Assembly: GCA_937873425.1 (NCBI GenBank)
Contig: CALMYE010000089.1
Location: forward strand, 1-40,728
Direction of reading: 5' to 3'
DNA: 40,728 nucleotides
Source: an uncultured Sphingopyxis sp.
GTDB taxonomy: Bacteria > Pseudomonadota > Alphaproteobacteria > Sphingomonadales > Sphingomonadaceae
The notes under the pieces are model-generated. The model was not told the origin of the DNA and ran no database searches. It saw only the letters and a program-made list of their open reading frames with translations. Every line of letters starts with the position of its first letter. The stretch's first letter is position 1. Made by a program: the position numbers and the translations under genes. Of this stretch, positions 2,606 through 22,171 are shown in pieces.

Positions 2606-2613
2606 CGTTCATC

Positions 2614-2635
2614 CGCGGCGTTTTGCGACGCCGCG
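2614..2635 (+). terminator. Hairpin after topA, terminator-like
   Basis: An 8-bp perfect inverted repeat, CGCGGCGT (2614-2621) against ACGCCGCG (2628-2635), with a 6-nt loop, lies 9 bases after the topA stop and before the next gene's ribosome binding site. It has no T-tract, so it is a stable hairpin that may end or attenuate transcription, not a textbook intrinsic terminator. Confidence 0.5.
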
Positions 2636-2671
2636 AAGCCGTGTTAGGGTGACGCATCGGGGAGACCGTCG

Positions 2672-3796: not shown

Positions 3797-3801
3797 GCTG
3801 C

Positions 3802-4242
3802 CTAGTCGAAGGTTCGAGGATCGACCGAGTCTTTTCCGAACCAGGCGCGGGCGTCGGGTCGGAACAAGAAAAAGATCGAAAGCGCCGTCAGCGTAGTGCT
3901 GACAAGCGAAATTGCGAGCGCAAGCCCTGTCGGCGACCTCGGATCGTTGAGTGACGTAAGCGTCGAGACGGCGCCAAATCCCATGACCGCTACATAGATC
4001 CATTTGGCGATATTGCTCGCCTTTCGGGCAACGAAATACCAGAGAAGGATCGATATTGCGAAGCCAAATCCCAGTGCGATGCCGACGAAGATTGCCGCCG
4101 ACCCGACCATCGGTGCGGTAGCCGGATCGCTTCTCAGCGAGGCGATGATCGTTGGCCAATGAAGCGCCAAACTTCCGACGCCGAGCAGCATGGAAGCCCA
4201 GAAACTGCGCTCGAAGTTTATGATGGATGCCGGACGTGCCAC
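3802..4242 (-). CDS. Small four-helix membrane protein of unknown function
   Basis: The 146-aa product has four hydrophobic segments: around ASMLLGVGSLAL, a Gly/Ala-rich one ending in ISILLWYFV, one around WIYVAVMGFGAV, and one around VSTTLTALSIFFLF. The C-terminus is short and polar. I recognise no catalytic motif. It follows era closely on the same strand and is likely the last gene of the lepB operon. The frame is open to a TTG at 4269 inside era. I prefer the GTG at 4242, just after the era stop, because the product then begins MARPASI and does not need to overlap era. Function is unknown. Confidence 0.7.
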   Translation of the reverse strand: MARPASIINFERSFWASMLLGVGSLALHWPTIIASLRSDPATAPMVGSAAIFVGIALGFGFAISILLWYFVARKASNIAKWIYVAVMGFGAVSTLTSLNDPRSPTGLALAISLVSTTLTALSIFFLFRPDARAWFGKDSVDPRTFD

Positions 4243-4252
4243 GGTTTGCCGC

Positions 4253-5146
4253 TCAATCCACCCAATCAAGCCCCATGTCGCGATAGACGCTGCGATCCTC
4301 GTCCCAATTCGCTTTGACCTTCACATGCAGGAACAGGTGAACCGTCCGCCCCAGCAGTTCGGTCAGTTCGGCGCGCGACTTGCTGCCGATCTCCTTGATG
4401 CGTTCGCCCTTGTGGCCAAGGATGATCGCGCGCTGGTTGTCGCGCGCGACGAGGATCTGCTGATGGATTTCCGCGCTGCCGTCCTTGCGCGTCGTGAATT
4501 TCTCGGTCTCGACGGTTGATTGATAGGGCAGTTCCTCATGCAGCTGGCGATAGAGCTGTTCGCGGGTGATTTCGGCGGCGAGCATGCGTTCGGGCGCGTC
4601 GCTGACCTCGTCTTCGGGAAAATGCCAATGCCCCTCGGGCATCAGCGCCGACAGCGTCGCCTTCAGTTCGGGAACGCCGTCGCCCGTGCTTGCCGAGATG
4701 AAGAAGGTTTCATCGAAGGCGACGCGCTCGTTGAGCGTCGTCGCGGTCGTCAGCAGCTTGTCCTTCCGGGTCAGGTCGACCTTGTTGAGCACGAGGAACT
4801 TCTTTTCGGGCCGCCCTTCGATCCCCTGCAGCACGCGCTCGGCGCGTTCGCCGAGTTTTGCCGCAGCATCGATCATCACCAGGATCGCCTCGGCCTGGTC
4901 GAGGCTGTTCCACGCCGCAGCGACCATGGCGCGGTCGAGCCGACGGGTGGGGGCAAAGATGCCCGGCGTGTCGATCAATATGATCTGCGTGTCGCCATCC
5001 ATCGCCACCCCCATCAGCCGGGTGCGCGTCGTCTGCGCCTTGGGGCTGACGATTGCGACCTTCTGGCCGACCAGCGCGTTGACGATGGTCGATTTGCCCG
5101 CGTTGGGCGCGCCGACGACGGCGACAAATCCGCAGCGGTGGGTCAT
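4253..5146 (-). CDS. era: GTPase Era
   Basis: Era is a Ras-like GTPase that binds 16S rRNA and helps mature the 30S subunit. The 297-aa protein shows G1 (GAPNAGKST), G3 (DTPG) and G4 (NKVD) in the first half. The C-terminal half is a KH RNA-binding domain containing [12 protein letters not shown]. Length is normal for the family. Its ATG overlaps the rnc stop as ATGA, so the two are probably translationally coupled in the lepB-rnc-era operon seen across alphaproteobacteria. Confidence 0.97.
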
Positions 5147-5823
5147 TCTTTAAGTCCTTCGAGTTCGGCGAGCAGGGCTGCCGCTGCGGCCTTTTCGGCC
5201 GCCTGTTTGCTGGTGCCTTCGGCCTCTGCGCGTGCAAGCTTGCCGACGCTGACGGCAACGCGGAAGCGCGGTGAGTGGTCGGGGCCTTCGCGGGCGACGA
5301 TTTCATATTCGGGGGGGCGGCGTTTGCGCGCGAGCGCCCATTCCTGCAGCGCCGCTTTGGGATGTTTGGGTGCCTCTACCTGTCCGTCCACCATGTCGCC
5401 CCAATGGGCGAGGATGAAAGCGCGGGCGGCGTCGATGCCCTGATCGAGATAAAGCGCGCCGATCAGCGCCTCGATCGCATCGGCCGCGATATTGTCGCTA
5501 TAGCGCCCGCCATCGTTGCGCGCCTGCGCGCCGAAACGGATCAGGTCGGTGAGGTTCAGCCGCTGCGCAATCGCGGCGCAAGTCGCGCCGGATGCCAGCA
5601 CATGCAGCCGCGACGACATCTCGCCCTCGCTCGCGGTCGGATAGCGCGCGTAAAGTTCGGATGCAATGACCAGGCCAAGCACGCGGTCGCCCAAAAACTC
5701 GAGCCGCTGGTAATCGGCGCGCCCGGTGCTGCCATGGGTCAGCGCCAGTTCGTACAGCGCCAGATCGTCCGGGGTGCTGCCGAGGATTTCGGCGAGCGCC
5801 CCGGTGTCCAGCTTATCGGTCAA
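5143..5823 (-). CDS. rnc: Ribonuclease III
   Basis: RNase III cuts double-stranded RNA in rRNA and mRNA processing. The 226-aa protein has the signature [12 protein letters not shown] near residue 43, the second acidic site DAIEALIGA, and a C-terminal double-stranded-RNA-binding domain ending in [13 protein letters not shown]. The frame stays open far upstream inside lepB, but that part is only lepB read out of frame. The start I support is the TTG at 5823, which overlaps the lepB stop as TTGA and has a GGGGATGG stretch just upstream. This gives a normal length. Rnc, Era and LepB form one coupled operon. Confidence 0.94.
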
Positions 5824-6713
5824 AAACCATCCCCGATGCGGCTCCAGCGCGCCGCAGTGAACCAGCTGATCGGGTTGATCCAGCTTGCTGATCCGTCGGT
5901 CGAGAACATGCCGACGAGCGCTTTGCCGACGAGGTTCTCCTCGGGCACCAGGCCGATGCCCTGATTTTCCATCGCAGGAAAACGGCTGTCGGCACTGCGG
6001 TCGCGGTTGTCGCCCATCATGAACAAATGGCCTTCGGGAACGACGACCAGATCCGTGTTGTCCTCGGCAATCGTGGTTATATCGAGGATATTGTAGCTTT
6101 TGCCGCTCGGCAGCGTCTCGCGGAACTGCTTGTAGCGGCATTGGCGCTGACCGTCGGGAGCGACTTCCTCAAACTCCATCGAGTAGCAGGGCAAGCTTCC
6201 CATTGCGCGCGATGCGTCGACCATGTTCGGGGTCACCGGAATAACAAAATCGGCGATCGGCTCGCGCTTCAGCGGCTTGCCGTTCAGCCACACGATGCCG
6301 TCCTTCACCTGCACGCTGTCGCCCGGCAGGCCGATGACGCGCTTGATATAATCATTGTCGGCAACCGGCGGCGCCTTGAACACTGCGACGTCGCCGCGCT
6401 CGGGGGTGCGCGCGAACAGGCGGCGCGGGATCAGCGGCACGCTGAACGGCAGGCTGTACTTCGAATATCCGTAAGCCATCTTATTGACGAGCAGATAGTC
6501 GCCGATCAGCAGCCTGGGCTGCATCGATTCCGAGGGAATGTTGAACGGCGACAGGAAAAAGCTGCGGAAAACCAGCACCGCGATCGCGAGCAACGCGAGG
6601 AAGCGGACGGTGTCGACCGCCTCTTCCTTTGCCGATACCGGTGCGGGGGTCGGCGCGGACGGGGCGGGCTGGCTGGCTGGCCCGTTATCGACGGTAATGC
6701 TGGCTTCGGTCAT
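5820..6713 (-). CDS. lepB: Signal peptidase I
   Basis: LepB removes signal peptides from exported proteins at the outer face of the inner membrane. The 297-aa product has a Pro/Ala-rich N-terminal cytoplasmic stretch of about 30 residues and one transmembrane helix ([16 protein letters not shown]). It has the catalytic serine in PSESMQP and the catalytic lysine in [11 protein letters not shown], and the late conserved box [12 protein letters not shown]. It is the first gene of the minus-strand operon with rnc and era. Its promoter must lie in the 197-bp gap before pgi, which also carries a REP-like inverted pair. Confidence 0.96.
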
Positions 6714-6813
6714 GCCGCGGCATTGGCGATGAATAGGTTACCACGTCAAGCAAATATCGGCGGATGGCGCTGGTGTCGCGAGGGGCGTGGACGTATGGAA
6801 AGGCCAGTCAATC

Positions 6814-6893
6814 CCGTTCGCATCGAGCGAAGTCGAGATGCTCCTTGGCAGCACATGTCCTCGCGGTGTCTCGACTTCGCTCGACACGAGCGG
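6814..6893. repeat. Inverted pair of REP-like elements
   Basis: Two copies of a short repeat face each other. The left arm is about 6814-6840, with core CGAGCGAAGTCGAGA. The right arm is about 6866-6893, with core TCTCGACTTCGCTCGA. The cores are near-perfect reverse complements separated by about 25 nt. From memory, this GTGTCGAGCGAAGTCGAGAC family is a widespread intergenic repeat in sphingomonads. The pair ends about 6 bp before the pgi Shine-Dalgarno, so it may fold as a hairpin in the pgi leader or insulate the divergent lepB and pgi promoters. Confidence 0.75.
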
Positions 6894-6910
6894 ATTTTAG
6901 AGGATTTTCG

Positions 6911-8416
6911 ATGACGACAGCCGATCAAGCCTGGCGCGCGTTCGCCGACTGGCAGCCGCATAAACTGACCGACCTGATCGCCACCGATCCCGACGCGCGG
7001 TTGCAGGCTCTGGTGCGCAGCGTTGCCGATATTCGCTTCGATTTTGCCAAGACGCATCTGGATGACGCTGCGGTCGCGATCCTGTCCGACCTTGCCGCCG
7101 CGCAGGATTTCGACGGGCGCCGCAAGACGCTGTTTTCAGGCGGCATCGCCAATCCGACCGAGAACCGTGCCGCCGAGCATAGCGCCGAACGCGGCGACGG
7201 CGCCCCCGATTCGGTCCACCGCGCGCAGGCGCTGCATCAGCGGATGCGGATGATGATCGATGCGATCGAGGCGGGTGCATTCGGCGAGATCCGCCACCTG
7301 CTCCACATCGGCATTGGCGGATCGGCACTCGGCCCCGACTTGCTCGTCGATGCGCTGGGTCGTCACAGCAACCGCTATGACGTCGCTGTGGTGTCGAACG
7401 TCGATGGCGCGGCGCTCGATGAGGTGTTTGCAAAGTTCAGCCCCGAACATACGCTGGTTGCGGTCGCGTCGAAGACCTTCACCACCACTGAAACGCTGAT
7501 GAACGCCAATTCGGCGCTGCAATGGCTCGACGAAGCTGGCGTCGACGATCCGCTCGGGCGCTTCATCGCGCTGACCGCAATGCCCGATCGCGCAATTGAA
7601 TGGGGCATCGACGAAACGCGAATCCTGCCGTTCAACGAGACGGTGGGCGGGCGCTATTCTTTGTGGTCGTCGATAGGCTTTCCTGCCGCACTGGCGCTCG
7701 GCTGGGATGCGTTCGAGGATATGCTCGAGGGCGCAGCGGAGATGGATCGCCATTTCCGCCTCGCGGACGGTGCGGACAATATCTGCCTGCTCGCCGCCTT
7801 CGCCGATCAACTCTACGCCAATCGGCTCGGCTGCCAGACGCGCGCGGTGTTCGCCTATGATGAGCGGCTGCGGCTACTGCCGAGCTATTTGCAGCAGCTT
7901 GAAATGGAATCGAACGGCAAGTCGGTGACCCTGGCGGGTGAGGCGCTAGGCCGCCACAGCGCCGCGATCACCTGGGGTGGGGTCGGCACCGACGCGCAGC
8001 ACGCCGTGTTCCAGCTGCTGCATCAGGGCACCAATCTGGTCCCGGTCGAATTTGTCGTAGCGCGCGAGCCCGACCATCTGCTCGACGACGCGCATCACGA
8101 AACGCTCGTCGCCAACTGCATCGCGCAGGGCGCGGCGCTGATGGCGGGACGGGCGAGTGAAGATGGCGCGCGCAACTATCCGGGCGACCGTCCGTCGACG
8201 ACGATCCTGCTCGATCAGGTGACACCGCACGCGCTGGGCGCGCTGATCGCCTTTTACGAACATCGCGTGTTCGCCAATGCCGTGCTGCTCGGGATCAATC
8301 CGTTCGACCAGTTTGGCGTCGAGTTGGGCAAGGACATGGCAAAGGGGCTGGCCGAGGGAACGATCGACTTCGACCCGGCAACGCAGGCGCTGATGGCGGC
8401 TGCGCTCGGCGAATGA
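6911..8416 (+). CDS. pgi: Glucose-6-phosphate isomerase
   Basis: Pgi interconverts glucose-6-phosphate and fructose-6-phosphate in the cytoplasm. In sphingomonads this feeds the Entner-Doudoroff and pentose-phosphate routes and polysaccharide precursors. The 501-aa product has the sugar-phosphate site GIGGSALGPDLLVDAL, the family box ESNGKSV and the C-terminal signature GINPFDQFGVELGK. The frame is open further upstream, but that part crosses the REP pair. The ATG at 6911 has AGAGGA at 6899-6904 as ribosome binding site and gives a family-like N-terminus. Confidence 0.96.
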   Translation: MTTADQAWRAFADWQPHKLTDLIATDPDARLQALVRSVADIRFDFAKTHLDDAAVAILSDLAAAQDFDGRRKTLFSGGIANPTENRAAEHSAERGDGAPDSVHRAQALHQRMRMMIDAIEAGAFGEIRHLLHIGIGGSALGPDLLVDALGRHSNRYDVAVVSNVDGAALDEVFAKFSPEHTLVAVASKTFTTTETLMNANSALQWLDEAGVDDPLGRFIALTAMPDRAIEWGIDETRILPFNETVGGRYSLWSSIGFPAALALGWDAFEDMLEGAAEMDRHFRLADGADNICLLAAFADQLYANRLGCQTRAVFAYDERLRLLPSYLQQLEMESNGKSVTLAGEALGRHSAAITWGGVGTDAQHAVFQLLHQGTNLVPVEFVVAREPDHLLDDAHHETLVANCIAQGAALMAGRASEDGARNYPGDRPSTTILLDQVTPHALGALIAFYEHRVFANAVLLGINPFDQFGVELGKDMAKGLAEGTIDFDPATQALMAAALGE

Positions 8417-8525
8417 GACAGCGCCACTGTCTGTGATGGCAAAAATCGATTGGCATCGCGGCACCGCGTAACCACATAGGCGCCGGCTGCGAATGCCAGC
8501 CAATTCTATTGCAAGGGTCTCCCAC

Positions 8526-9872
8526 ATGAGCAATTTCGACTTCGACCTGTTTGTCATCGGCGCCGGGTCGGGCGGCGTTCGCGCCTCGCGCGTGGCTGCG
8601 TCCTATGGCACGCGCGTAGCGGTGGCCGAAGAGCATCGCGTCGGCGGCACCTGCGTCATTCGTGGCTGCGTGCCCAAGAAATTGCTCGTTTATGGCGCGC
8701 ATTTTGCCGAGGATCTGAAGGACGCCCGCCATTTCGGATGGGACGTTCCCGACTGCAAATTCGACTGGGACCGGCTGCGCGACAATGTGCTGGCCGAGGT
8801 CACCCGGCTCGAAGGACTGTACGGTCAGACGCTCGAAAATCACAAGGTCACGCTGTTCAAAACGCGCGCGACGATCGTCGGGCCGCAAAAGGTGCGGATG
8901 GCCGATGGAGAGGAAATCACCGCCGAGCGCATCCTGATCGCGACCGGCGGCTGGCCTTTCGTTCCCGAATTTCCGGGCAGCGAGCATGCGATTACCTCGA
9001 ACGAGGTGTTCCACCTCGACAAGTTGCCGGGTCGCGTCGTGATCGCGGGCGGCGGCTATATTGCCAACGAATTCGCCGGCATCTTCAACGAATTCGGCAG
9101 CAAGGTAACGATCGTCAACCGCGGCGACACGATCCTGCGCGGGTATGATGAGCAGATCCGCGACCGGCTGCTGCAGATCTCGATGACCAAGGGCATCGAA
9201 TTCCGCTTCAACGCGCCGTTCGAGTCGATCGAGAAGAAGGAGGACGGTTCGCTGACCGTCCATCTAGGCAATTGCGATCCGATCGATGCCGACATCGTGC
9301 TGGTCGCGGCGGGCCGGGTGCCGAACACCAAGGGGCTGGGGCTGGAAGAGGTCGGCGTCGAGCTCGACAAAGAGGGCGCGATCAAGGTCGACGAGACCAA
9401 CCAGTCGTCGGTTCCCAGCATCTATGCCGTCGGCGACGTCACCAACCGCATCCAGCTGACCCCGGTCGCGATCCGCGAAGGGCAGGCCTTTGCCGACAGC
9501 GTCTTCGGCGGCAAGCCGACGGTGGTCGACTATGCCAATGTCCCGAGCGCGGTGTTCAGCCACCCACCGATCGGCGCGGTCGGGATGACCGAAGCCGAAG
9601 CGCGCAACAAGCTGGGCACGGTGCGTGTATACACGAGCGATTTCCGCGCGATGAAGAATGTTCTGGCGGGCCGCAACGAGCGCGCGCTGTACAAGATGAT
9701 CGTCAATGAGGCGACCGATCAGGTGGTCGGGCTGCACATGATCGGGCCCGATGCGCCGGAGATTTTGCAGGCGGCAGCGGTTGCGGTGAAGGCCGGGCTG
9801 ACCAAGGCCGATTTCGACGCGACGGTGGCGCTGCACCCGAGCATGGCGGAAGAGTTGGTGTTGCTGAAATAA
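8526..9872 (+). CDS. gor: Glutathione-disulfide reductase
   Basis: Gor reduces oxidised glutathione with NADPH. The 448-aa flavoprotein opens with an FAD-binding GAGSGGVRASR motif and carries the redox-active disulfide CVIRGCVPKK near residue 43. It has a second Rossmann motif GGGYIANEFA for NADPH, the FAD box YAVGDVTNR, and the C-terminal dimer-interface histidine in LHPSMAEE. The ATG at 8526 gives the normal N-terminus; an upstream in-frame ATG at 8493 would add 11 unlikely residues. It stands alone, 109 bp after pgi, and points toward the scfR-like gene with a REP-like hairpin between them. Confidence 0.95.
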   Translation: MSNFDFDLFVIGAGSGGVRASRVAASYGTRVAVAEEHRVGGTCVIRGCVPKKLLVYGAHFAEDLKDARHFGWDVPDCKFDWDRLRDNVLAEVTRLEGLYGQTLENHKVTLFKTRATIVGPQKVRMADGEEITAERILIATGGWPFVPEFPGSEHAITSNEVFHLDKLPGRVVIAGGGYIANEFAGIFNEFGSKVTIVNRGDTILRGYDEQIRDRLLQISMTKGIEFRFNAPFESIEKKEDGSLTVHLGNCDPIDADIVLVAAGRVPNTKGLGLEEVGVELDKEGAIKVDETNQSSVPSIYAVGDVTNRIQLTPVAIREGQAFADSVFGGKPTVVDYANVPSAVFSHPPIGAVGMTEAEARNKLGTVRVYTSDFRAMKNVLAGRNERALYKMIVNEATDQVVGLHMIGPDAPEILQAAAVAVKAGLTKADFDATVALHPSMAEELVLLK

Positions 9873-9881
9873 GATCATTGC

Positions 9882-9897
9882 CCCCGCCTTCGCGGGG
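9882..9897. repeat. REP-like hairpin between convergent genes
   Basis: CCCCGC-CTTC-GCGGGG forms a 6-bp perfect stem with a tetraloop in the 32-bp gap between the ends of gor and the convergent regulator gene. It matches the CCCCGCCTTCGCGGGG intergenic repeat I know from many alphaproteobacteria. It may serve as a bidirectional transcription barrier; there is no T-tract. Confidence 0.6.
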
Positions 9898-9904
9898 ACG
9901 ACGG

Positions 9905-11314
9905 TTAGCCAATCCGATACGGCACGACGTCCCGCCGATCGGGATCGACCAAGATCGGCCGATCGCTCGGCGGAAAAGCGCGTTGGTCGCAGTCGTCGCG
10001 CGGGCAGATGCGGCACGACAGGCCGATGCGCGTCGCCGCCTGTGGGGCGGTGACGTCGACTCCGTCGGCATAGACGAAATCACCCGCATATTGCGCCTCG
10101 CACCCGAGCGCGACGGCGTAGCGCCGAGGGCTGCGCGCGTAGCTGCCCGACGGCTTCACCAACCCCTTCGCCATCGACACATAGCGCAGCCCGTCGGGTG
10201 TCTCGGCCAGCTGAAACAGGATGCGGTCCGGGATCGCCGCCGCTTCATGGACGATCCACAGCGGGCAGGCGCCGCCGAAGCGCGCAAATTGGAGGCGCGT
10301 CGCGCTGTGCCGCTTGGTGATATTGCCCGCCATGTCGACGCGGCAGAAAAACATCGGAATGCCGCGTGCGCCGGGCCGCTGAAGGGTCGAGAGGCGGTGG
10401 CACGCCTGTTCGAAGCTGACCCCATAGTCCATCCGCAGCCGGTCGATGTCGTGGCGCACGGCGCGCGCGCTGGCGCGGAAGGGGACGTAGGGCATCAGCA
10501 CCGCGCCCGCAGCATAGTTGGCGAGGCCGACGTGGAGCAATTGCCGCGCGGCGGCTGTGCGTAGTGGACTGGCCTCCACCACCGCCGCGATTTCGCGCGC
10601 CAGCGCTAACGCTGCGAGTTGGTGCGCCAACTGAAAACGGCGGCTCTCGGCGGGCTGCGACGGGTCGATCACCAGGTGGCGCATCGTCGCGTCGAAATCG
10701 CGAAGACTTTGCGTCTGGGTGTAAACGATCGAAATGCCGAGCGCGTCGCGCAGCCGTCGTTCAATCGTCTCGATGGTTGGGGAAGGGTCTTTGCCGCGCA
10801 ACTGCCCAGCCAGGGTTTCGGCGGCGCGGTCGATGCTATCGACATAGTTGCCCGCATCGTGAAACCAGTCGCGTACCTCTTCCCACGGCAGGCGGCTCCC
10901 CTCGGCGGTGCCGCCGGTCAGAGCCTCGTCGATGATCTGGAGCCGCTGCCCCGCGCGGCGATAGGCGGCATGGAGCGTGACAAACTGGTCGGTGAGCTGT
11001 GGCTGTTGCAGTGCCGCGCGTTCGAGCTGTTCGGGGGGCAGGGGCGCGGCAGCGAAGAGCGGGTCGGCAGCGGCTTCGCGCAGTGCTCCGGCGCGGCGAT
11101 CACCGGCGTCGGCGGCGACCTCCTCCCATTCGAGCGGAAACAGCTTTTGCAGCCGGTCGAGGAGTACAGGGGTCAGTGGCCGGTCGTCATGCTCGATCTG
11201 GCTGAGGTAGGAGGCCGAGATCCCGAGTTTTGTCGCGAAGTCCGACTGACGGAGGTTGCGGGAGTCCCGAAGTTGGCGAAGTTGCCGCCCGGCGTAGAGT
11301 CGGTTTTGCACCAT
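9905..11314 (-). CDS. XRE-family ScfR/PccR-type transcriptional regulator
   Basis: The 469-aa protein starts with an XRE helix-turn-helix ([20 protein letters not shown], about residues 22-41). A long middle region is of the IrrE/ImmA-like (DUF955) type, but its HExxH motif is reduced to LAHQLA, so no protease is expected. The C-terminal domain carries CRICPRDDC. This layout is that of short-chain acyl-CoA-responsive regulators (ScfR, PccR, RamB). Related PccR controls propionyl-CoA carboxylase. The gene is divergent from a carboxylase beta gene, and TTTGCAA-type repeats lie between them, which fits that role. Start: ATG at 11314; upstream open frame is intergenic. The ligand is inferred. Confidence 0.88.
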
Positions 11315-11328
11315 CGGCGGCACTTTAT

Positions 11329-11371
11329 TCTGCAAACTAGCACTTTGCAACTTTGCAAATTCGCATTTGCC
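11329..11371. promoter_or_regulatory. TTTGCAA repeat cluster, likely ScfR/PccR operator
   Basis: The divergent promoter region holds TCTGCAAAC (11329-11337), CTTTGCAA (11343-11350), CTTTGCAAAT (11351-11360) and GCATTTGCC (11363-11371). Published PccR and RamB sites are built on TTTGCAA half-sites. The two central copies lie 8 bp apart and AACTTTGCAAA matches the RamB core. I infer that the regulator at 9905-11314 binds here and controls both itself and the carboxylase/kinase ORF. Confidence 0.65.
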
Positions 11372-11423
11372 TGCGCGGCTCGAAGCGGGCAGACGATATT
11401 CTGAAGTGCGTTGGGAGAGCCGA

Positions 11424-14400
11424 ATGTCCGCCAATATCGCCGAAATGGAACGCCGCCGCGCCGCCGCTGTCTTGGGCGGCGGGCAAAAGCGCATCGATGC
11501 GCAGCACAGCAAGGGCAAGCTGACCGCGCGCGAGCGAGTCAATGTGCTGCTCGACGAAGGCTCGTTCGAAGAACTCGACACCTATGTCGAGCATAATTGC
11601 GTGGATTTCGGCATGCAGGACCAGAAGATCCCGGGCGACGGCGTGGTGACCGGATCGGGGACGATCAACGGGCGTCTCGTTTATGTTTTCAGCCAGGATT
11701 TCACGGTTTTTGGCGGCGCGCTGTCCGAGCGTCACGCCGAAAAGATCATGAAGGTCATGGACAATGCGATGAAGGTCGGCGCGCCGATCATCGGGATGAA
11801 CGACAGCGGCGGCGCGCGCATCCAGGAGGGTGTGGCATCGCTTGGCGGCTATGCCGAGGTGTTCCAGCGCAACGTGCTCGCGTCGGGGGTGGTGCCGCAG
11901 ATCAGCCTGATCATGGGGCCGTGCGCGGGCGGCGCGGTTTACAGCCCGGCGATGACCGACTTCATCTTCATGGTCAAAGACAGCAGCTATATGTTCGTCA
12001 CCGGCCCCGATGTGGTCAAGACCGTGACCAACGAGGTGGTCACGCAGGAAGAGCTCGGCGGCGCGATCACCCACACGACCAAGAGCTCGGTCGCAGATAT
12101 TGCGTTCGAGAATGATATCGAGGCGCTCCTCGCAACGCGCGATTTCTTTGACTTTCTGCCCGAAAACAACCGCAGCGGCGTCCCGGTGCGCCCGACGAGC
12201 GACCCCTATGATCGCGCCGAACCGAGCCTCGACACGCTGATCCCGCCCAATGCGAACCAGCCGTACGACATGCACGAGCTGATCAGGAAGACCGTCGACG
12301 AGGGCGATTTCTTCGAGGTGCAGCCGGCGCATGCGGGCAACATCATTTGCGGCTTCGGGCGCATCGAGGGCCGCACGATCGGCATCGTCGCGAACCAGCC
12401 TTTGGTGCTCGCGGGGGTGCTCGACATCAACTCTTCGAAGAAGGCGGCGCGCTTCGTGCGCTTCCTTGATGACCTCGGCCGCCAAACGATGTTGAGCACC
12501 GATGCCGACGAGATATTGGCAACCACCACGCGGATGGTCGGCGAGGAACTCGGCGTCTCGATCTGTGCCTATGCCGACATGGACGAGGATGGCGACGGCT
12601 TCACGATCCGCGGCGACTGGGCGGCCGAAGGTTCGGCATCGATCGTTGGCCATTACCGCCTCTCGGCTTTCGGCGAACTGGCGGTTCGCTATCTGCATGC
12701 GGGCGATCCGCTCGTCATTCACGATAATGGCAGCGAACTTCCTGCGGCGGCGGCGGCGACCTTTCGCGACATCGGCATCGCCGCGACGATCTGCATGCCC
12801 CTGGTGAAGGAGGGGCGGCTCACGGCGCTGATGGCGATCCATCACCGCGAGCCGCATGTCTGGAGCGATTATGAACTCGCGTTCATCCGCGACGTGGCCG
12901 ATCGCAGCTGGGCGCATATCGAACGCGTCGGCACCGAGGAGGAACTGCGCAAGACCGCCGAACGGCTGCGTGATCTCAACGAGACGCTCGAAATGCGCGT
13001 AGCCGACCGCACCGCTGCGCTCGATCGCAGCCAGACCCAGTTCCGCCTGCTCGTGCAGGGGGTGACCGACTATGCGATCTATATGCTCGACGGCGAAGGC
13101 CGTGTCTCGAGCTGGAACGCGGGAGCCGAGCGGATCAAGGGCTATCGTCCCGACGAAATCATCGGGCACCACTTTTCCGCCTTCTACGAGGAGGCCGACC
13201 GCGCGGCGCTGGAGCCGCAGCGCGCGCTCGAGACGGCGCGGCGCGAGGGCCGCTTCGGCGCCGAAGGCTGGCGGATCCGCAAGGACGGAACGCGCTTTCG
13301 TGCGAGCGTCGCGATCGAGGCGATTCATGGCGACGACGGCGCGCTGATCGGTTTTGCCAAGATCACCCGCGATATGTCGGAGCGCGAGGAAGTGCAGCAG
13401 GAACTCGAGCTCGCCCGCGAGGCCCTGTTCCAGTCGCAAAAGCTTGAGGCGATCGGCCAGCTTACCGGCGGGATCGCGCACGACTTCAACAATCTCCTGA
13501 TGGCGATCCGCAGTGGCCTCGAACTGCTGCGCAAACGCCCCGGTCTCGAACCGCAGGCGGCGAAGCTTCTCGACAATTGTCTCCAGGCGACCGATCGCGG
13601 CGCCGCGCTGACCCAGCGCATGCTTGCCTTCGCGCGGCGCCAGGAACTCTCGACCGAGGCGGTGATCCTCGCCCAGCTCGTCGGCGGCATGATGGAACTG
13701 CTGCAGCGTGCGCTCGGACCCGCGTTCGTGATCGAGACGCGCTTTCCTGCCGCGCTCGCGGCGGTTGCGGCCGACGTCAACCAGCTCGAAATGGCGCTCC
13801 TCAATCTCGCGGTCAACGCGCGCGACGCGATGCCCGGCGGCGGCGCGATCGCGATCGGCGCCGTGGAACAGGATGTCCGGCCCGGCGCGGTCGCCGACCT
13901 CGCGCCGGGCCGTTATGTGCGGCTGTCGGTCACCGATAATGGCGCGGGCATGGACGCCGCAACGCTCGCCCGCGCCGCCGACCCCTTTTTTACCACCAAG
14001 GGCATCGGCAAGGGCACCGGCCTCGGCCTGTCGATGGTCCATGGGTTTGCGCAGCAGCTCGGCGGCGCGCTGCAGATGGAGAGCGAGGTCGGGCGCGGCA
14101 CGAGCGCGCATATCTGGCTGCCCCTGAGCGATGCGCAAACCGGTGCAGCGGTTCCCGACACCGAGCCCGTCGAGGCGGCCAGCACCGCATGCCGGCGCAT
14201 CCTCGTCGTCGACGACGACGCAATCATTCTGATGAACACCGCGGCCCTGCTCGAGGATCTCGGCCATCAGGTGATCGAGGCGGGATCGGGCGAGGAGGCG
14301 TTGGAACTGCTGCGCGCGCATCCCGATATCGCGATCCTCATCACCGATCAGGCCATGCCCGGCATGACGGGCAGTGAGCTGATCGCCGCCGCGCGCGCCG

Positions 14401-14537
14401 AGCGCCCCGCGCTCCCGGTCATTCTTGCCACCGGCTATGGCGAGACCCCGGCCGATGTCACGCAGGGCCTGCAGCGGCTCGGCAAGCCCTTCGGGCAGAA
14501 GGATCTTGAGCGCGCGGTCGCGCAGGCGGCGGCGTAA
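11424..14537 (+). CDS. Chimeric ORF: acyl-CoA carboxylase beta N-half fused to GAF-PAS hybrid histidine kinase
   Basis: One uninterrupted 1037-aa frame joins two unrelated families. Residues 1-347 are an acyl-CoA (propionyl-CoA type) carboxylase beta subunit, with [35 protein letters not shown] and [14 protein letters not shown]. The family normally runs to about 510 aa, and the whole C-terminal carboxyltransferase half is missing. From about residue 348 (LDDLGR) a hybrid sensor kinase follows: GAF about 352-510, PAS about 535-660, HisKA with phospho-acceptor H686 in GGIAHDFNN, HATPase to about 905 (NAVNARD-type N box, [10 protein letters not shown]), then a receiver with D975 in TDQAMPG. There is no output domain. 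GGGAGA at 11413 supports ATG 11424. Carboxylase activity is very unlikely; the kinase part looks complete except perhaps its first residues. This is either a true deletion fusion or a contig chimera. Confidence 0.85.
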
Positions 14538-14570
14538 GGAACGGGTGCGGCGGCAAGGAGACGATCCTGT

Positions 14571-14726
14571 ATGTTCCGCCGCTTGTTTATCCCGGCCGCC
14601 GAACCGATCGAGCCCGGAGAGGCGGAGGCATTTGCGAAGCTCCCCCGAGCGCCACTTTACGGCCTTTGCCGCGTCTCCAAGGACGCCGCCGCCCTTGCGT
14701 ATTGCCTGTGGATATCGACCGCATAA
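14571..14726 (+). CDS. Possible 51-aa ORF of unknown function
   Basis: A short frame from ATG 14571 has AAGGAG about 10 nt upstream and encodes 51 residues, with an acidic middle (EPGEAEAFAKL) and a hydrophobic end (ALAYCLWISTA). I recognise no family. It sits between the kinase and a decayed oxidoreductase gene, so it may itself be debris. Only the ribosome binding site supports it. Confidence 0.3.
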   Translation: MFRRLFIPAAEPIEPGEAEAFAKLPRAPLYGLCRVSKDAAALAYCLWISTA

Positions 14727-14756
14727 CAGATTTCGATTCCACGACCGCCGAAGTCA

Positions 14757-15398
14757 CCAGCGAGATCTACTGTCTCGTCGTTGGCACGGCCCCGCTGGCC
14801 TCACCGCTGCAATATATCTTGCGCGTAGGCGCTCGGCGGCGGTCGGGAAAGCTGAGCAAGCCGAAGCGCTAGCCGACCGGCGGCTTTGCTAATGTCCGAT
14901 CTGCACGGGCTGCGGTGACCGATCTAACTATTGCGGTTCTGGGCCCGCGCGAGCGCGGCTGCAACGAAGCTGTTTTTCTGCGAAGCTTTGCCGCCGATAT
15001 CACGCTGGTGTCGCCGGGGGCTCGTGATGAGCTTTCGGAAGCGAAACGCCCGAAGTTGCGCGATGCCGGTGTGGCACGGAGAGGGCACTGCAACGCGAGC
15101 GCGCTTGCCGAGGGTGACTGTGCTTGAGGCCGATGGCCGACCAGCTTGTTTCGATTGTCTCTTTCCCGCGCCGGGCTCGGCCATTTGTTCGGTGCTCGCG
15201 GCCGAGGTTGGAGCCGCCGTGACCGCGGCAGGCTGTCTACGCCTTCACGGCGATCAGCGCACCGATGCGCCAGAACTCTATGCGGCGGGCGACGTCATCC
15301 TCGGCTTCGGCCGGATCAGTCACGCGATGGGGGCGGGCGGCGTCGCCGTGACCACGATCGGAATCGACCTGGCCCAGCAGACGCCGCTTCGCCGCTAA
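14757..15398 (+). pseudogene. Decayed thioredoxin-reductase-like FAD oxidoreductase
   Basis: Pieces of a TrxR-like NAD(P)/FAD oxidoreductase appear in order but in different frames: LVVG, then a shift to GPAGLTAAIYLARRR (FAD site, near 14785-14835), then VLGPRERGCNEAVFLRSFAADITLV, another shift to ADGRPACFDCLFPAPGSA, then LYAAGDVILGFGRISHAMG (C-terminal FAD box) ending at a normal stop at 15398. At least two frameshifts are needed. The span of about 640 bp is short for a family of about 300 aa, so part of the middle, including the expected CxxC region, has been deleted. It ends 2 bp from the convergent catalase gene. It cannot encode a working enzyme. Confidence 0.8.
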
Positions 15399-15399
15399 C

Positions 15400-17634
15400 T
15401 CATGCCTTGGGTGCGGGAGCTGCGTCGAGATCGACGTGCAGTTCCCGCCTCCAGAAGCGCAGCGCGCGCGCGGCCTCAACGAAGGGTGCGGCATCGCTGG
15501 CCTTTTCAAGAAGCATGCAGGCGTCGTCGAGGTCATCGGCCAGCCCGACCGCCGCGAAAATCGCCGCAGCTTCGGCGGTCATGCCGATAAACTTGCAATG
15601 GGCGAACGCGTCGCTCACGAAGTCTTTCGCCGCGGCGTCGGCAGCCAGCTCTGCGGCGCCTTCCTCGGATACGATGATCGCGACGGCATCGAAGAGTACC
15701 GAAGGCCCGCCGTCGATCTTGTGGCGCGCTGCGACCTTGGTCCCGTCGGCGAGCGTCACGCCGCCGATTTTGGGCGCGACAACCTCATAGACGGCGCCTT
15801 CGGCATCGAGCGCCTTGACGAGCGCCTTGAAGATCGTCGGATTGGCGCCGTCGCTCATCAGGATGCCGAGCTTGCGGCCCTTGAAGCTGTCGGGGCCGTT
15901 TTTGAGGATGCTGAGCGCATCCGAGGGGGGCAGATCGGTAATCGGCTTGCGCGCCGAGACCGCAGCGTCGGGCAGGTCCATGCCGAGACCGTCGGCGACA
16001 GTTGCGGCCAGCGTCTCGTCGATGTTGCGCAGATGCGAAACGGTGCGCGAGCGGATGTCGGGGCGTTCGACCTTCGACAGCTCGAATACAAGCGCGTCGC
16101 CGATATGCTTCTGCTCGATCGGCGTCTGGCTGACGAAAAATTGCCGCGCCTGGCTATAATGATCGGCGAAGCTTTCCGATCGCACCCGCTGCTTGGGTCC
16201 ATCGGCCTCTTCCTCAAAGCTCCGGAAGCCGCGCACCGGATCCTCGCGCGGGCCGCCTTGCGCGGGGCCCCAGCTGTTCGGCTCGTAATTCACGCGGCCA
16301 ACCGGATTGCGCATCGCCATATGTCCGTCCTGCTGGAAATGCGCCATCGGGCACTTGGGCGCGTTGATCGGGATATGGGTGAAGTTGGTGCTCCCCAGGC
16401 GTTTGATCTGCGTATCGAGATAGGAGAAGTTGCGGCCCTGGAGCAGCGGATCGTTCGAGAAATCGATGCCCGGCGGCACATTCTGGGTCATGAAGGCGAC
16501 CTGCTCGGTTTCGGCGAAGAAATTGTCGACCACGCGGTCGAGCACGAGGCGGCCGACAATACGGATCGGGACAAGTTCTTCGGGGATCAGCTTGGTCGCA
16601 TCGAGCACGTCGAAGTCGAAGCTGTCAGCGAAATCATCGTCAAACAGCTGGACGCCGAGCTCCCACTCGGGAAAGTCGCCACTGTTGATCGCATCCCACA
16701 GGTCGCGACGGTGGAAATCGGGATCGGCACCATTGATCTTGACCGCTTCGTTCCAGACCACCGACTGCAACCCCTGCTTGGGCTTCCAATGGAATTTGAC
16801 AAAGGTCGACTTGCCCTTGGCGTCGAGCAGGCGGAAGGTGTGGACGCCGAAACCTTCCATCGTCCGGAACGAGCGCGGGATCGCGCGGTCGGACATCGTC
16901 CACATGATCATGTGGAAGCTCTCGGGCATCAGGCTGATGAAGTCCCAGAAATTGTCGTGCGCCGAGGCTGCCTGCGGAAAGGCGCGGTCGGGTTCAGCTT
17001 TTACCGAATGGACGAGATCGGGGAATTTGATCGCGTCCTGGATGAAGAAGACGGGGATGTTGTTGCCGACGAGATCCCAATTGCCCTCCTGCGTGTAAAG
17101 CTTGACCGCGAAGCCGCGAACATCGCGAGCGAGATCGAAGCTCCCCTTCGAACCGGCGACAGTCGAAAAGCGCACGAAGGCGGGGGTGCGTTCGCCTACG
17201 CGCTGAAAAACATCGGCGCGGCTGACATCGGACAGGCTGTCGGTGAGTTCAAAAAAGCCGTGCGCGCCATAACCGCGTGCGTGGACGACACGCTCGGGAA
17301 TACGCTCATGGTCGAAGTGGAAAATCTTCTCGCGGAAGTGGAAGTCCTCGATCAAGGTCGGGCCGCGCGCGCCCTGCTTCAAGCTATTCTGGTCGTCGGC
17401 GATCGGAGCGCCGTGCTGTGTCGTCAGCGTCGCGACATCGCCTTCGGCGACCTGGTGCGTCTCGCCGCCTTCGCTCAACGGCCCGTCGAACGCAAAGCTG
17501 ATCGCGGCGTCGCCGGGAATGGCCGGGGCTTTGTGCGGGCTTTCGCCGCCGATGTCGGCGCCCGCAATGTCCGCCGGGGTCATGGTGGACCCTGACCGGC
17601 CGGAGGGGTTTTTCGAAGAAGGTTTTTTGGCCAT
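15400..17634 (-). CDS. katE: Large-subunit catalase, KatE/HPII type
   Basis: This 744-aa monofunctional haem catalase breaks down hydrogen peroxide. The distal histidine is H118 in PERVVHARG, the conserved asparagine is N191 in [10 protein letters not shown], and the proximal haem-ligand tyrosine is Y405 in RNFSYLDTQ. After the catalase core, about residues 590-744 form the class-I-glutaminase/DJ-1-like C-terminal domain found only in large (clade 2) catalases, which fits the length. No signal peptide is seen. It is divergent from the Crp-like regulator across 228 bp. KatE-type enzymes are usually stationary-phase or general-stress genes; I found no clear EcfG-type promoter just upstream. Confidence 0.95.
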
Positions 17635-17862
17635 GGTGCACTTTTGCCGATCATTTGGAGGAAGCAGGACGCCCCGGGATGCTCCAAGCGAGCGACGAGG
17701 CGGCGGTATAGGCTTAACCGCCAGATGCCCTGCAAGTTGCGCCGTTTGACGCGAAATTAATCTGCATCATCACGATTGCGGGTCGCTGCGTGCAACGCGC
17801 TGCCGCATCGACCGTTGGGAGACAAGACAAGTCATCCCGCAAGACCCTGAGGTTCGTCATTC

Positions 17863-18612
17863 ATGTTCACCGAACGCTTTTTGAGAGACAAGCGCGGCGC
17901 GAGCCTGACTGGCGAGGAGCGGGCACGGATCGAGGGAGCGATCGGCGAAGTGAAGACCCTCGCGCCGCGCAAGATCATCGCGCGCGCCGGCGAGCCGCTC
18001 CACCAAAGCACGTTGCTCATCGAAGGCGTGATGTCGCGCTATCTCGACGACCGCCAGGGCCTGCGCCAGCTCGTCGCGATCCACCTGCCGGGCGATTTTC
18101 TCGACCTCCATGCCTTTCCGCTCAGGGTCCTCGATCATGACGTCGCGACGCTGACGTCCGCAACCGTTGCGACGATTTCACATGCCCAGCTTGAAGCGAT
18201 CACTCAGGATATGCCTGAACTCACGCGCAAGCTGTGGTTTGCCACTCTCCTGGACGCGGCGATCCATCGCGCCTGGCTGTTCAGGCTCGGGCGTCTCGAC
18301 GCAACCGGCCGCATCGCGCACTTTTTGTGCGAGACCAACGCGCGGCTCTTCTCCGCCGGACTGAGCGACGGCCGTCGCTTCGCGCTCGCACTCACCCAGG
18401 CCGATCTTGGCGAGATCTGCGGCTTGACGACGGTTCATGTGAACCGCGTGATGCGTCAGCTGCGCGAGAAAGGGCTCTGCAGCTTTCGCGCTTCGCTCGT
18501 CGAGATTCCCGATCCCGTGGCGCTCGCGGCACGGGGTCAGTTCGATCCCGACTATCTCTATATGGAAACGATCCCCGATTTTCTCTCGAACGTAAAAAGG
18601 CCACGATCATGA
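17863..18612 (+). CDS. Crp/Fnr-family transcriptional regulator
   Basis: The 249-aa protein has a cyclic-nucleotide-binding-like beta-roll at about residues 25-120 (GEPLHQSTLLIEG, LVAIHLPGDFLDLH) and a Crp-type winged helix at about 150-225. The recognition helix region is TQADLGEICGLTTVHVNRVM at 179-198. There is no N-terminal cysteine cluster as in FNR, and the cAMP-contact residues of CRP are not evident, so the signal is unknown. A TGAGGT ribosome binding site precedes ATG 17863. It is divergent from katE, so local control of the stress genes is plausible but inferred. Its stop overlaps the next gene's start (ATGA). Confidence 0.9.
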   Translation: MFTERFLRDKRGASLTGEERARIEGAIGEVKTLAPRKIIARAGEPLHQSTLLIEGVMSRYLDDRQGLRQLVAIHLPGDFLDLHAFPLRVLDHDVATLTSATVATISHAQLEAITQDMPELTRKLWFATLLDAAIHRAWLFRLGRLDATGRIAHFLCETNARLFSAGLSDGRRFALALTQADLGEICGLTTVHVNRVMRQLREKGLCSFRASLVEIPDPVALAARGQFDPDYLYMETIPDFLSNVKRPRS

Positions 18613-18803
18613 CGCCAGATACCGCCGGGCCGCAGCCCGAGACCGAACCCGGTACCGCCACCGCCGAGGGTGGCCTTGTCTTTCTCGAGGGTCCCGACGG
18701 AGTCGCGGCGACCATGACGGCGGACGCGGCCGCCCGGACAGGTCAGCGCCTGATCGATGCCGCTACGGTAGCGGCGACGCAGCAGACGTCCCACAGCGAT
18801 TGA
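18609..18803 (+). CDS. 64-aa protein coupled to the Crp-like regulator
   Basis: This short frame begins with an ATG that overlaps the regulator's stop as ATGA, a strong sign of translational coupling. The product is soluble, with a Pro/Glu/Thr-rich N-terminus (PQPETEPGTATAEGG), a short conserved-looking core (VFLEGPDGVAATMTADAAA) and an Ala-rich helix at the end. I recognise no named family and see no signal peptide or membrane segment. It may be an accessory of the regulator or an unrelated stress protein. Confidence 0.6.
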   Translation: MTPDTAGPQPETEPGTATAEGGLVFLEGPDGVAATMTADAAARTGQRLIDAATVAATQQTSHSD

Positions 18804-18885
18804 GCCTGGAGTTGGGCCGCGGGCGGGCGCTTTTGCGGGTGGGTCACCGGCTCGCGCATCCGGGCCGCAGTAAAGGAGAGGTACA

Positions 18886-19515
18886 CTGGAGGACAGCGCG
18901 GGTCTGATTGCCGCCATCGCGACCATGATCGCCGCGATGATGACCGCCTCCAACCTTGGTGCGCGCATCACGGGCTGGGGCTTTGCCGTCTTCACCATCG
19001 GATCGATTTGCTGGTCGCTCGTCGGGTTTTGGTCGGGACAAACCCATCTCGTTGCAACAAATGTCTTTTTGACTTTGGTGAACCTCGTCGGCATCTGGCG
19101 CTGGCTCGGGCGGCAGCGCGCTTATGAAGAAGGCGCGCAGGCAGCGACGCGGGCAAGCCGCAAAACGGCGACGCCGACGCTGATCGCGGCGACAGGCGTG
19201 CCGGGCATGCAGGTGATCGATGTGCGGGGCGAGGCGCTGGGCCACGCGGTCGATGCGCTGATCGAATGCCGGGCCGGTCATATCAGCTATATCGTCGTCG
19301 CAACGGGCGGCATGGCCGGTATCGATGAGAAGCTGAGAGCAGTCCCCATGGCAGCAGTCGATTGTCGCGCCGATGGCTTCGTGGTGCTCGAAACGTGCGC
19401 AGAATTCGAGCAGCGCCAAATCCTTGAGCCGGGGCAATGGCCAGGCCGCGAACCGCCCCCCAAGCGCGCGACGGCCACGCTGTCTTCACGCAGCGCAGCG
19501 CCGCTCTTGATATAG
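18886..19515 (+). CDS. PRC-barrel domain membrane protein
   Basis: The product has two N-terminal transmembrane helices (GWGFAVFTIGSICWSLVGFW and VFLTLVNLVGIWRWL), a linker, and a PRC-barrel-like domain at about residues 100-180 (GMQVIDVRGEALGHAVDALI, ISYIVVATGG). PRC barrels occur in photosynthetic reaction centres, RimM and many stress proteins. I chose CTG 18886 as start because AAGGAGAGG lies at the ideal distance (GGAG 7 nt upstream), while the first ATG (18925) has no ribosome binding site. This gives 209 aa. The last 25 or so residues (from about PGQWPGR) read across the antisense of the neighbouring decayed manC and are probably not native, so the gene's 3' end may have been replaced by a deletion. 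Confidence 0.72.
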   Translation: MEDSAGLIAAIATMIAAMMTASNLGARITGWGFAVFTIGSICWSLVGFWSGQTHLVATNVFLTLVNLVGIWRWLGRQRAYEEGAQAATRASRKTATPTLIAATGVPGMQVIDVRGEALGHAVDALIECRAGHISYIVVATGGMAGIDEKLRAVPMAAVDCRADGFVVLETCAEFEQRQILEPGQWPGREPPPKRATATLSSRSAAPLLI

Positions 19516-19820
19516 TCAAAACCTGTGCCGGGCCGATCCGGCGCAATGCCGAAGGGGACGGGCCGGTTTTCGCGCGCCAGCGGCGCGCCTCGGTCGATGG
19601 CAATGTGAAAGGCCGGCACATCGGGGATGACATGGCCCGATCAGCAGACGACGAGCGGGTCGGCGAAGGCGCGTCCCGCGACCCGCGCCAGCGTGCCGTT
19701 GCAGAGGCTCGCATCGTCGACAATGTCGAGGAATTGCTTGGCACGCTCGCCGCGGGACGCAGGCTACAGGCGGCCTCCGGCGCCACCGCAAAGGACCACG
19801 GGCTGTACCGCGCCGTGCAA
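19456..19820 (-). pseudogene. manC: Remnant of mannose-1-phosphate guanylyltransferase
   Basis: On the minus strand, 6 bp after the glycosyltransferase stop, one frame reads the nucleotidyltransferase start VVLCGGAGGRL, then a TAG where the family has Trp (RLWPAS), then PASRGERAKQFLDIVDDASL (the pyrophosphorylase PKQFL box) and FADPLVVC. A TGA follows, and then, still in frame, SGHVIPDVPAFHIAIDRGAP and FGIAPDRPGTGFDYI, which belong about 60 codons later in intact ManC/AlgA. So the remnant has a nonsense mutation, an internal deletion and a missing C-terminus, its homology ending near the PRC-barrel gene. ManC makes GDP-mannose, which fits the adjacent glycosyltransferase. No working product is expected. 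Confidence 0.78.
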
Positions 19821-19825
19821 ATGGC

Positions 19826-22171
19826 TCAGCCGGCGAGCTCGGGCACCGAGGTGGAGAGTCTCCGCGCGCCAACCTCGGGCATCGCTTCGCGCCAGAATTT
19901 CGCGGCCATCGTCTGCGAAGCGAGCTGATAAGCGAGGACCGATTCCGCGCCGCTGTTGCTGTTGACCCCGTGTGGAGTCAGGCCGTCGACGCAGCGTCCG
20001 GAGTTGGGGTCTGCCAGAGCAATAGCGCGATCATTGCGGCCAAAAAACCAGGCATAGGCGGTCTCGGCATGGGCGCGCCATGCCTTGCTCCGCGTCGCAT
20101 CGAATGCCGTTGCGCAGGCGTCGATCGTCGCCCAGGCTTCGAGCGGCTGCTGGTCGAACGGAAAGCTTTCCCCGGCCCGGTCGAAGCTGTCCGACCCTAC
20201 CGGACGAAAATGACCCTCGCGAGCGGTCTGGAAATCTGCGAGCCAGTCGAGCGCGGCGAGACCGGCTTCCTCGAGCGGGAGCGAGCGGAGCCGCTGCCCC
20301 GCGCGGATCAGCGCTTCTGCCAGGCGGGCATTATCGTAGGAAAGCCCGGCTTCGAACCAGTCCCAGCCCGGCCGGCGTGCAGCTTTCCACAACGCGCACA
20401 AAAACGCGCCGCCGCGCTCGACGATCGCGTGCGCCCGGGCGTTGCCAGGTTCATGCGCGAGCCGCGCATCGGCGCCGAGGACCGCAAAGGCGACCGCGCG
20501 CAGACTCTTGAACCGCTCGGCCATCGGTGCGGCGAGATCGAACAGGTCGGCGGCCCAGTCGCGCATCGCGGGCGAGGCGGCATGCGCTGCGGCATGACCG
20601 AGCGCCCAGAGCGTGCGCCCGTTACTGTCCTCCGAGCCTTCATCCTCGAGCCAGCGGCGGTCGTAACCCATGAAATTGCGAAACACGCGGCGATCGGGAT
20701 TCCAGCCATGTTGGATAAAGCTGGCGAAGGAAAGCGCGCGCGATTGCGCCAGTACCTGCCCGCGCGCTGGCAAGCCGTGCACAAGCATCAACGCGCGGGC
20801 ATTGTCGTCGATGCAATAGCCGTGGCGGCGATCAGGAACGCGATGAATACTGTGCTGGAACATGCCGACATCGTCGCAAAGCGCCCAGGCGCCCTCGATC
20901 GCGGGCATGCGGCGCGTGCCCGCGGGGGGCTCGGGCAGGGCGACACCATCGACCAAGGTCGCGCAGGCGCGCGCGATCACGTTCCATGCGGTGCGGCGTC
21001 CCCGGGCATAGGCGCGCCGCTGAAATGTACGGCGTTCTTCGGGAACCGCGAGCAGCAGGAGCACGGCTTCGGCGATCGCATCGCTGTCGATTCCGGGGAG
21101 CAGGATGCCCACATCGTCGGCAAGCAGTTCGCGAGCGTGAACAAAGGGCGTCGAGACTACGGCGCGGCCGAGCGCCACCGCATAGGCGAGCGTTCCCGAC
21201 GTGATCTGTTGCAGATTGGGATAGGGTGCGAGGTAGATGTCGCAAAGCTCGATCTGGTCGAGCAGTTCTTCGGTGTCGAGAAAGCGGTTCTCCCACGCGA
21301 CATTTCCCGCGACGCCGAGGCTTCCCGCGAGCTGCTCCAGACTTTCGCGATAGGCCTCGCCTTCGGCTGCAACGAGATTGGGATGGGTCGCGCCCACGAT
21401 CCGGTAGAGGACGTCGGGATATTGTGCGACGATCGAGGGCAGCGCCCGGATCGCGGCTTCGAGGCCTTTGCCGGGCCCGATCAGGCCGAACGTCGAGATC
21501 ACGGGGCGATCGGCGATGCCGAGCGCCTCGCGGAGCGGCGCGATATCGACAAAAGGCCGGTCGGGCGTCCCATGCTCGATATGGACGATCTGAGCGGCGC
21601 TCGCGCCATACACGTCGCGCAAGGTTTCTCGACCATAATCGCTCATGACGACAAGCTTGCTGGCGCGCGCAACGAGCCGGTCCATCACGCGGCGTTGATC
21701 CGCACTGGGAGCGGCGAGAACAGTATGCAGCGTTACGATCAACGGCGCAGCAACACGATCGACCAGTTCGAATATCATTTCGCCGGCGGCGCCGCCGTAA
21801 ATGCCGAATTCGTGTTGAAGCCAGATGGCTTGTGCGCCGCTAGCGTTGATCGCCTCGGCTGCGGCCCGATAATCTGCCGGCGCCTGTTCGTTAATCGCGA
21901 GCGAAACCTCGCTGCCCATATCCGGATCGGTGCGGCTGCGCATCGCATAAATGTCGATCGCCAGATCGCAGCGCGCAGCGCGAAGATGATCGTAAGTGTC
22001 GGCCGTGAAGGTCGCGATCCCGCATTGGCGCGGCCGAAAGCAGCCGATGAGGGCGAGCCGGTGTGCCTGGCGGATCGGCGGTGCCGTATCGGCAGGAAGG
22101 GAGACCGGGGAGGAAGAAAGATCGTCGAGGGAAATATCGCGGAAAAACCGGTCATCGCTATCGTACTTCAT
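19826..22171 (-). CDS. Two-domain glycosyltransferase (GT4-like plus alpha/alpha-toroid C-domain)
   Basis: The 781-aa protein has an N-terminal GT-B glycosyltransferase of GT4 type: an acceptor-side start CGIATFTADTYDHLR, then STFGLIGPGKGLEAAIRALP and the donor-binding region DIYLAPYPNLQQITSGTLAYA at about residues 205-345. From about residue 420 the C-terminal half is a helix-rich domain (YCIDDNARALM, GRTLWALGHAA, PFDQQPLEAWATIDA) that resembles six-hairpin glycosidase folds. Such fusions occur in polysaccharide and mannan-type clusters. It is followed by a manC remnant, which supports a mannosyl donor. Several starts are possible; ATG 22171 has GAGGA 5 nt upstream. There is no signal peptide. 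The exact sugar and acceptor are unknown. Confidence 0.82.
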   Translation of the reverse strand: MKYDSDDRFFRDISLDDLSSSPVSLPADTAPPIRQAHRLALIGCFRPRQCGIATFTADTYDHLRAARCDLAIDIYAMRSRTDPDMGSEVSLAINEQAPADYRAAAEAINASGAQAIWLQHEFGIYGGAAGEMIFELVDRVAAPLIVTLHTVLAAPSADQRRVMDRLVARASKLVVMSDYGRETLRDVYGASAAQIVHIEHGTPDRPFVDIAPLREALGIADRPVISTFGLIGPGKGLEAAIRALPSIVAQYPDVLYRIVGATHPNLVAAEGEAYRESLEQLAGSLGVAGNVAWENRFLDTEELLDQIELCDIYLAPYPNLQQITSGTLAYAVALGRAVVSTPFVHARELLADDVGILLPGIDSDAIAEAVLLLLAVPEERRTFQRRAYARGRRTAWNVIARACATLVDGVALPEPPAGTRRMPAIEGAWALCDDVGMFQHSIHRVPDRRHGYCIDDNARALMLVHGLPARGQVLAQSRALSFASFIQHGWNPDRRVFRNFMGYDRRWLEDEGSEDSNGRTLWALGHAAAHAASPAMRDWAADLFDLAAPMAERFKSLRAVAFAVLGADARLAHEPGNARAHAIVERGGAFLCALWKAARRPGWDWFEAGLSYDNARLAEALIRAGQRLRSLPLEEAGLAALDWLADFQTAREGHFRPVGSDSFDRAGESFPFDQQPLEAWATIDACATAFDATRSKAWRAHAETAYAWFFGRNDRAIALADPNSGRCVDGLTPHGVNSNSGAESVLAYQLASQTMAAKFWREAMPEVGARRLSTSVPELAG

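Follow-up and report, generated by a model that had tools for sequence, protein, structure and literature searches.

The window considered here is the whole of contig C89 (40,728 nucleotides, 0 N by base count), one of the 337 contigs of a metagenome bin that is listed as 92.05% complete and 2.38% contaminated. Its left part (237-12464) carries topA, a lipase gene, era, rnc, lepB, pgi, a pyridine nucleotide-disulphide oxidoreductase gene and the start of pccB. To the right lies a kinase-led block (12465-28136) with genes for a catalase, a CRP-type regulator, dehydrogenases and a metallo-beta-lactamase-fold protein, followed on the - strand by hut (histidine degradation) genes encoding urocanase, N-formylglutamate amidohydrolase, an aromatic amino acid lyase and an amidohydrolase (28162-33366).

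The two parts meet inside a single open frame (11424-14537, + strand), which translates into 1037 aa. Pfam assigns residues 27-350 to Carboxyl_trans (PF01039), 360-495 to GAF, 551-653 to PAS_9, 678-741 to HisKA, 784-902 to HATPase_c and 926-1029 to Response_reg; the HisKA, HATPase_c and receiver domains each score above the Pfam cut-off, making the right-hand part a hybrid histidine kinase. Together with a reading of the frame, these matches agree with a preliminary description of the same DNA, which saw a carboxylase beta subunit up to residue 347 and a GAF-PAS-HisKA-HATPase-REC kinase thereafter.

Both genes are truncated at the joint

The carboxylase part (residues 1-347; 11424-12464, + strand) comprises the 5' two thirds of pccB. 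It covers positions 2-327 of the 493 in the PF01039 profile, short of a complete carboxyltransferase with both repeated halves. Residues 5-347 align without a gap to residues 26-368 of PDB 3n6r chain B, the best solved relative, right up to the joint; however, compared with PccB as solved in 3n6r chain B and 6ybp, the window protein lacks the last 163 residues, which make up most of the second half. In all 26 relatives examined (loci L011-L036) pccB continues in frame beyond the joint site and reaches the C-half motif GGAYDVM, with a stop 163 residues after RFVRF in 25 of them, the 26th locus ending before the stop. The first-half motif GGARIQEG is retained in the window and is also found in the 26 relatives. 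The early estimate that about 160 carboxylase residues are absent is thus borne out, as is the statement that they do not occur elsewhere in the window, where the 160-residue tail of a complete PccB from contig C225 of the same bin has no match.

The carboxylase is an internal repeat: residues 21-270 of the C225 PccB score 67 against residues 271-end, while the best of 200 shuffles scored 48 and none reached 67. The second repeat unit begins near residue 290 in the repeat alignment, so the joint at residue 347 keeps only some 60 residues of that half and cuts the protein in mid-domain. PccB is a hexamer with its active sites between N- and C-domains.

On the kinase side (12465-14537, + strand) the usual N-terminal ~180 residues are missing. 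The hybrid histidine kinase of Sphingopyxis sp. Root154 (870 aa; L037:5542-8154) shares 91% amino acid identity with the window over 685 residues from the joint, and has GAF, PAS, HisKA, HATPase and REC domains in the same order; it differs at its start, where the carboxylase fragment of the window stands in place of its first 180 residues. Intact kinase frames measure 862 aa in genome G010 and 870 aa in Root154, and the cut falls just before the GAF domain. The region ahead of GAF is PAS-like: the first 180 residues of the Root154 kinase, the one N-terminal region scanned with Pfam, gave a PAS_4 match that, at 20.8 bits, lies below the cut-off of 23.1. This region is present in Root154, G010 and G020 and absent from the window, whose kinase on this feature falls outside the subfamily.

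The joint itself is placed at 12457-12464 (TGCGCTTC, + strand), bases that are pccB by sequence and possibly common to the kinase. In DNA alignments, identity to Sphingopyxis-type pccB loci ends at 12463-12464 in nearly all rows (in four, L027 and L114-L116, it extends to 12477) and identity to the Root154 kinase begins at 12457, which together set these limits. At this site 26 relatives read RFVRF-CDAF on the pccB side and the closer kinases ESEARLRF-LD. An R-F dipeptide was proposed from the outset as a short match common to both families; this is true of the proteins, but in the DNA the exact run common to pccB, counted backward from the joint, measures 3, 8, 0 and 3 bases among four relatives of the kinase; counted forward, it measures 0 bases in five pccB relatives. 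As these relatives stand in for the window species' own kinase sequence before the joint, the true overlap may lie anywhere between 0 and about 8 bases.

Searches in other genomes returned no second case. With a 105-aa query across the joint, at least 357 of 397 family genomes (own included) gave a match and, among the matches listed, only the own genome spans positions 1-105; the best other genome among them, G111, matches positions 4-104 at 60%, and its DNA there encodes a kinase N-terminus and not pccB. Nor was the fusion seen in 59 other near genomes, 58 of them with a match to a 225-aa query. Kinase matches that reach past the joint onto the carboxylase part were read in three genomes (G010, G012 and G020) and proved to be the kinase's own N-terminus. 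Two weak ones, at 28-29% identity, lie in G032 (from residue 38) and G008 (from residue 31), and both of these genomes have an intact pccB elsewhere. The check first proposed, for the same fusion in related genomes, therefore found it in no independent genome among the 397 and the 59, as far as the matches listed go. Among the papers listed on the subject, judging by title or abstract start, none reports a carboxyltransferase-kinase fusion.

Second copies in the bin and the origin of the flanks

The left block of the window has a second copy in its own bin. C225:1-10842 aligns with window 237-12464 in five blocks, in the same order and at 77-88% DNA identity, with no counterpart on C225 of the window lipase. 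The C225 block (L117) continues into a complete pccB frame, and a pccA-type gene with a PCC_BT domain then follows on that contig. The earlier statement that, were the fusion real, the cell has lost this carboxylase was therefore unfounded, and the search of the assembly recommended at the time, for the pccB 3' half and for pccA, finds both on C225. For window proteins identified by Pfam, amino acid identity to C225 is 90% for topA, 84% for era, 66% for rnc, 73% for lepB, 88% for pgi and 87% for the oxidoreductase, and for pccB it is 93% over residues 1-349. The 237-12464 block has a match in each of the 80 genomes of the genus that were searched, its own among them. In bacteria topA, era, rnc, lepB and pgi are as a rule single copy. 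With diverged second copies of such once-carried genes on C225, the bin is most likely a mixture of two related Sphingopyxis species, although a single organism with a transferred second block may be an alternative. Two diverged copies of the topA-era-rnc-lepB-pgi-pccB block (66-93% amino acid identity) are a sign of a mixed bin despite the listed contamination of 2.38%.

GC and tetranucleotide profiles did not separate the left flank, the right flank and C225. Queried with the C225 160-residue tail, the bin yielded, besides C225, only two distant carboxylases (33-37%). The kinase N-terminus was not found in the bin with a query that included ten residues past the joint, an empty answer which, coming without a positive control genome, shows nothing alone; DNA upstream of the Root154 kinase found only weak matches there (66-77%). 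The hut copies on contigs C135 and C248 were considered as a second-species copy, and this was dropped since two hut operons (86% and 78%) occur in relative G034 and a paralogue is possible.

In a pccB tree of 34 sequences the window groups with G098, G034, G010, G086, G011, G021 and G031 (1.00), and C225 with G012 and G032 (0.995); the left flank, by its sequence, belongs to a species other than that of C225. In a hut tree of 29 sequences (the window and the loci of 28 relatives chosen from many matched) the window is nearest to G029 and G030 (1.00), then to G072, G086, G021, G010 and G034 (0.979), and far from G012. A shorter hutU-hutG alignment (30 sequences) places it with G021 and G086 (0.999) and with G072 (0.999). 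Four genomes (G010, G034, G086 and G021) fall into one clade with the window in each of the two trees, pccB and hut. The hut genes are a poor species marker, as they are duplicated or strongly diverged in some genomes and as G029 and G030, the window's nearest hut relatives, fall outside its pccB clade. The hut operon of the right flank is probably not from the species of C225 either, and it is likely that both flanks come from one species. We dropped the stronger claim that this is proven, given the value of 0.979 for the large hut clade and the position of G029 and G030 (1.00) outside the pccB clade. Identity profiles across 26 relatives gave weak values, 0.28 for window pccB versus window hut and -0.21 for C225 pccB versus window hut. 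A third locus of the bin, accA on contig C79, has its closest relatives, along most of the locus, in G081, G032 and G026 (87%); G012 also reaches 87%, but along less of it, and G027, G009 and G100 match in part at 90-91%. This is compatible with C225 representing the main species of the bin, as that contig probably does.

Gene order in relatives bears on the right flank as well. Window 15409-25372 is collinear with the Root154 genome (G077), and G010 has the order kinase to catalase as in the window. The DNA upstream of the kinase is partly common to G010 and Root154 and would be expected to the left of 12465. About 350 kb separate the hut block of G029 (C1:361803-368138) from its pccB (C1:721528), and in G030 and G010 hut and pccB are on different contigs. 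The preliminary description held that, if the joint is not real, everything to the right of it belongs elsewhere; the gene order of relatives fits this, but the right side too is Sphingopyxis-like. Near 28136-28162, between the convergent metallo-beta-lactamase-fold and urocanase genes, the gene neighbourhood departs a second time from that of other Sphingopyxis, which looks like ordinary genome plasticity.

Origin of the joint

Selection on the half of pccB that is left bears on how long the gene might have been broken. Against the seven clade members its omega is 0.048-0.057, above the mean of 0.014 that these seven show among themselves. Such a difference could point to a break that is older and real; a wider sample lends this no support. 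Set against 19 other loci, the window's near-neighbour omega of 0.074 sits in a range of 0.008 to 0.127, its count of 4 unique residues is like that of L095 and L111, and two neighbour genes behave alike. With the window thus unexceptional, relaxed selection was dropped as evidence of an old break. The pccB half is under strong purifying selection, within the range of other Sphingopyxis and no less constrained, with no clear sign that it has long been freed of function, and the joint is on these grounds recent or false.

We consider that the joint is probably that of a chimeric contig and not a biological fusion. Both genes are truncated, the joint is private as far as the listed matches show, and the bin is most likely mixed; the undiminished constraint on the pccB half is also what would be expected of a recent or false joint. 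The metagenome would hold at least two Sphingopyxis species, and the left part of the window would derive from one of them, X, other than that of C225, and would have been binned together with C225. The pccB locus of X would then have been joined at 12457-12464 to a kinase locus, from X itself or some other Sphingopyxis, both genes being truncated, during library preparation, assembly or gap closing, and the frame across the joint would be open by chance (1 in 3). What the data show is that both genes are truncated, that no other genome searched has the joint among the matches listed, that the bin carries the left block twice, and where the left flank falls in the tree; we infer that the second block stems from a second organism, that the right flank too would be from X, and that the joining took place outside the cell. 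Chimeric contigs of short-read metagenomes, as PMC7881036 describes them, are comparable in that the joint here occurs in no relative examined and the bin most likely holds more than one related species, and different in that the present case is known from assembled sequence alone, not from reads. Between the two options originally put forward, a real fusion or a wrong join, the private joint, the mixed bin and the cutting of both genes give the wrong join the better support, and the real fusion has little.

Several points argue against a chimera. The end of C135 and the start of C248 (L149, L150), inside hut genes, have exactly 55 terminal bases in common; in this one contig pair, such an overlap is what we take to be the mark of contigs from a k=55 graph assembler. 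A join made by k-mers alone on 0-8 shared bases is therefore unlikely. The joint is probably spanned by reads or pairs, and these would come from chimeric library molecules, from paired-read gap closing, a feature of SPAdes, or from a real rearrangement. Neither a second pccB tail nor the kinase N-terminus was found in the bin, where X may be poorly represented, and the frame is open across the joint. An 8-base match at a random joint has a chance of about 0.0004; if the kinase of X shared 8 bases with pccB, an event guided by similarity would be favoured, whether in the cell or in the tube.

Some of the same evidence suits a real rearrangement that is private to species X, an origin which we regard as possible but doubtful. 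Illegitimate recombination of distant loci at a short similar stretch would have broken pccB and removed the kinase N-terminal region, leaving a by-product that is probably non-functional or unstable. The 55-base contig overlap and the failure to find dangling halves in the bin are in its favour, and gene order in this region is plastic, as the hut genes, too, have a neighbour other than in relatives; both flanks are Sphingopyxis-like, with the same four genomes in the window's clade in both trees. However, the joint was not seen elsewhere in the 59 near genomes or, among the matches listed, in the 397 family genomes, the strong purifying selection on the pccB half means that the break would need to be recent, and each flank has nearest relatives of its own, with full support.

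It is quite unlikely that the fusion is functional, with the N-half of the carboxylase serving the kinase as a sensor (e.g., of acyl-CoA) and the whole expressed from the pccB promoter, for while the frame is intact over 1037 aa, the kinase part retains its HisKA, HATPase and receiver domains and the carboxylase part occupies the usual sensor place, that of the relatives' PAS-like region, the fusion is in no other genome searched (same scope) and the joint leaves a fragment, cut in mid-domain, that should neither catalyse nor assemble normally given the hexamer and its shared active sites. Very unlikely indeed is a real, transcribed Sphingopyxis fusion in which the N-half of PccB replaces the PAS-like sensor and its acyl-CoA-binding fold provides the signal input; if true, this would be a rare instance of a kinase that has taken over a domain from a metabolic enzyme as its sensor. 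The relatives examined have both genes whole and apart, and what looks like a fusion is most likely no new protein but the result of a false or one-off join. A mixed-species bin can make one contig look like a striking gene fusion and suggest that a gene has been lost; checked against relatives and the other contigs of the bin, both impressions become weaker or disappear.

At the right end of the window, DNA common to three relatives ends at 35436-35585, just before a gene for a large serine recombinase (Resolvase and Recombinase domains; 35793-37824, - strand) with an adjoining DUF2924 gene, which suggests an integrated mobile element. A protein-kinase-like gene (38724-40721, - strand; Pfam Pkinase, profile from position 28) is cut by the contig end.
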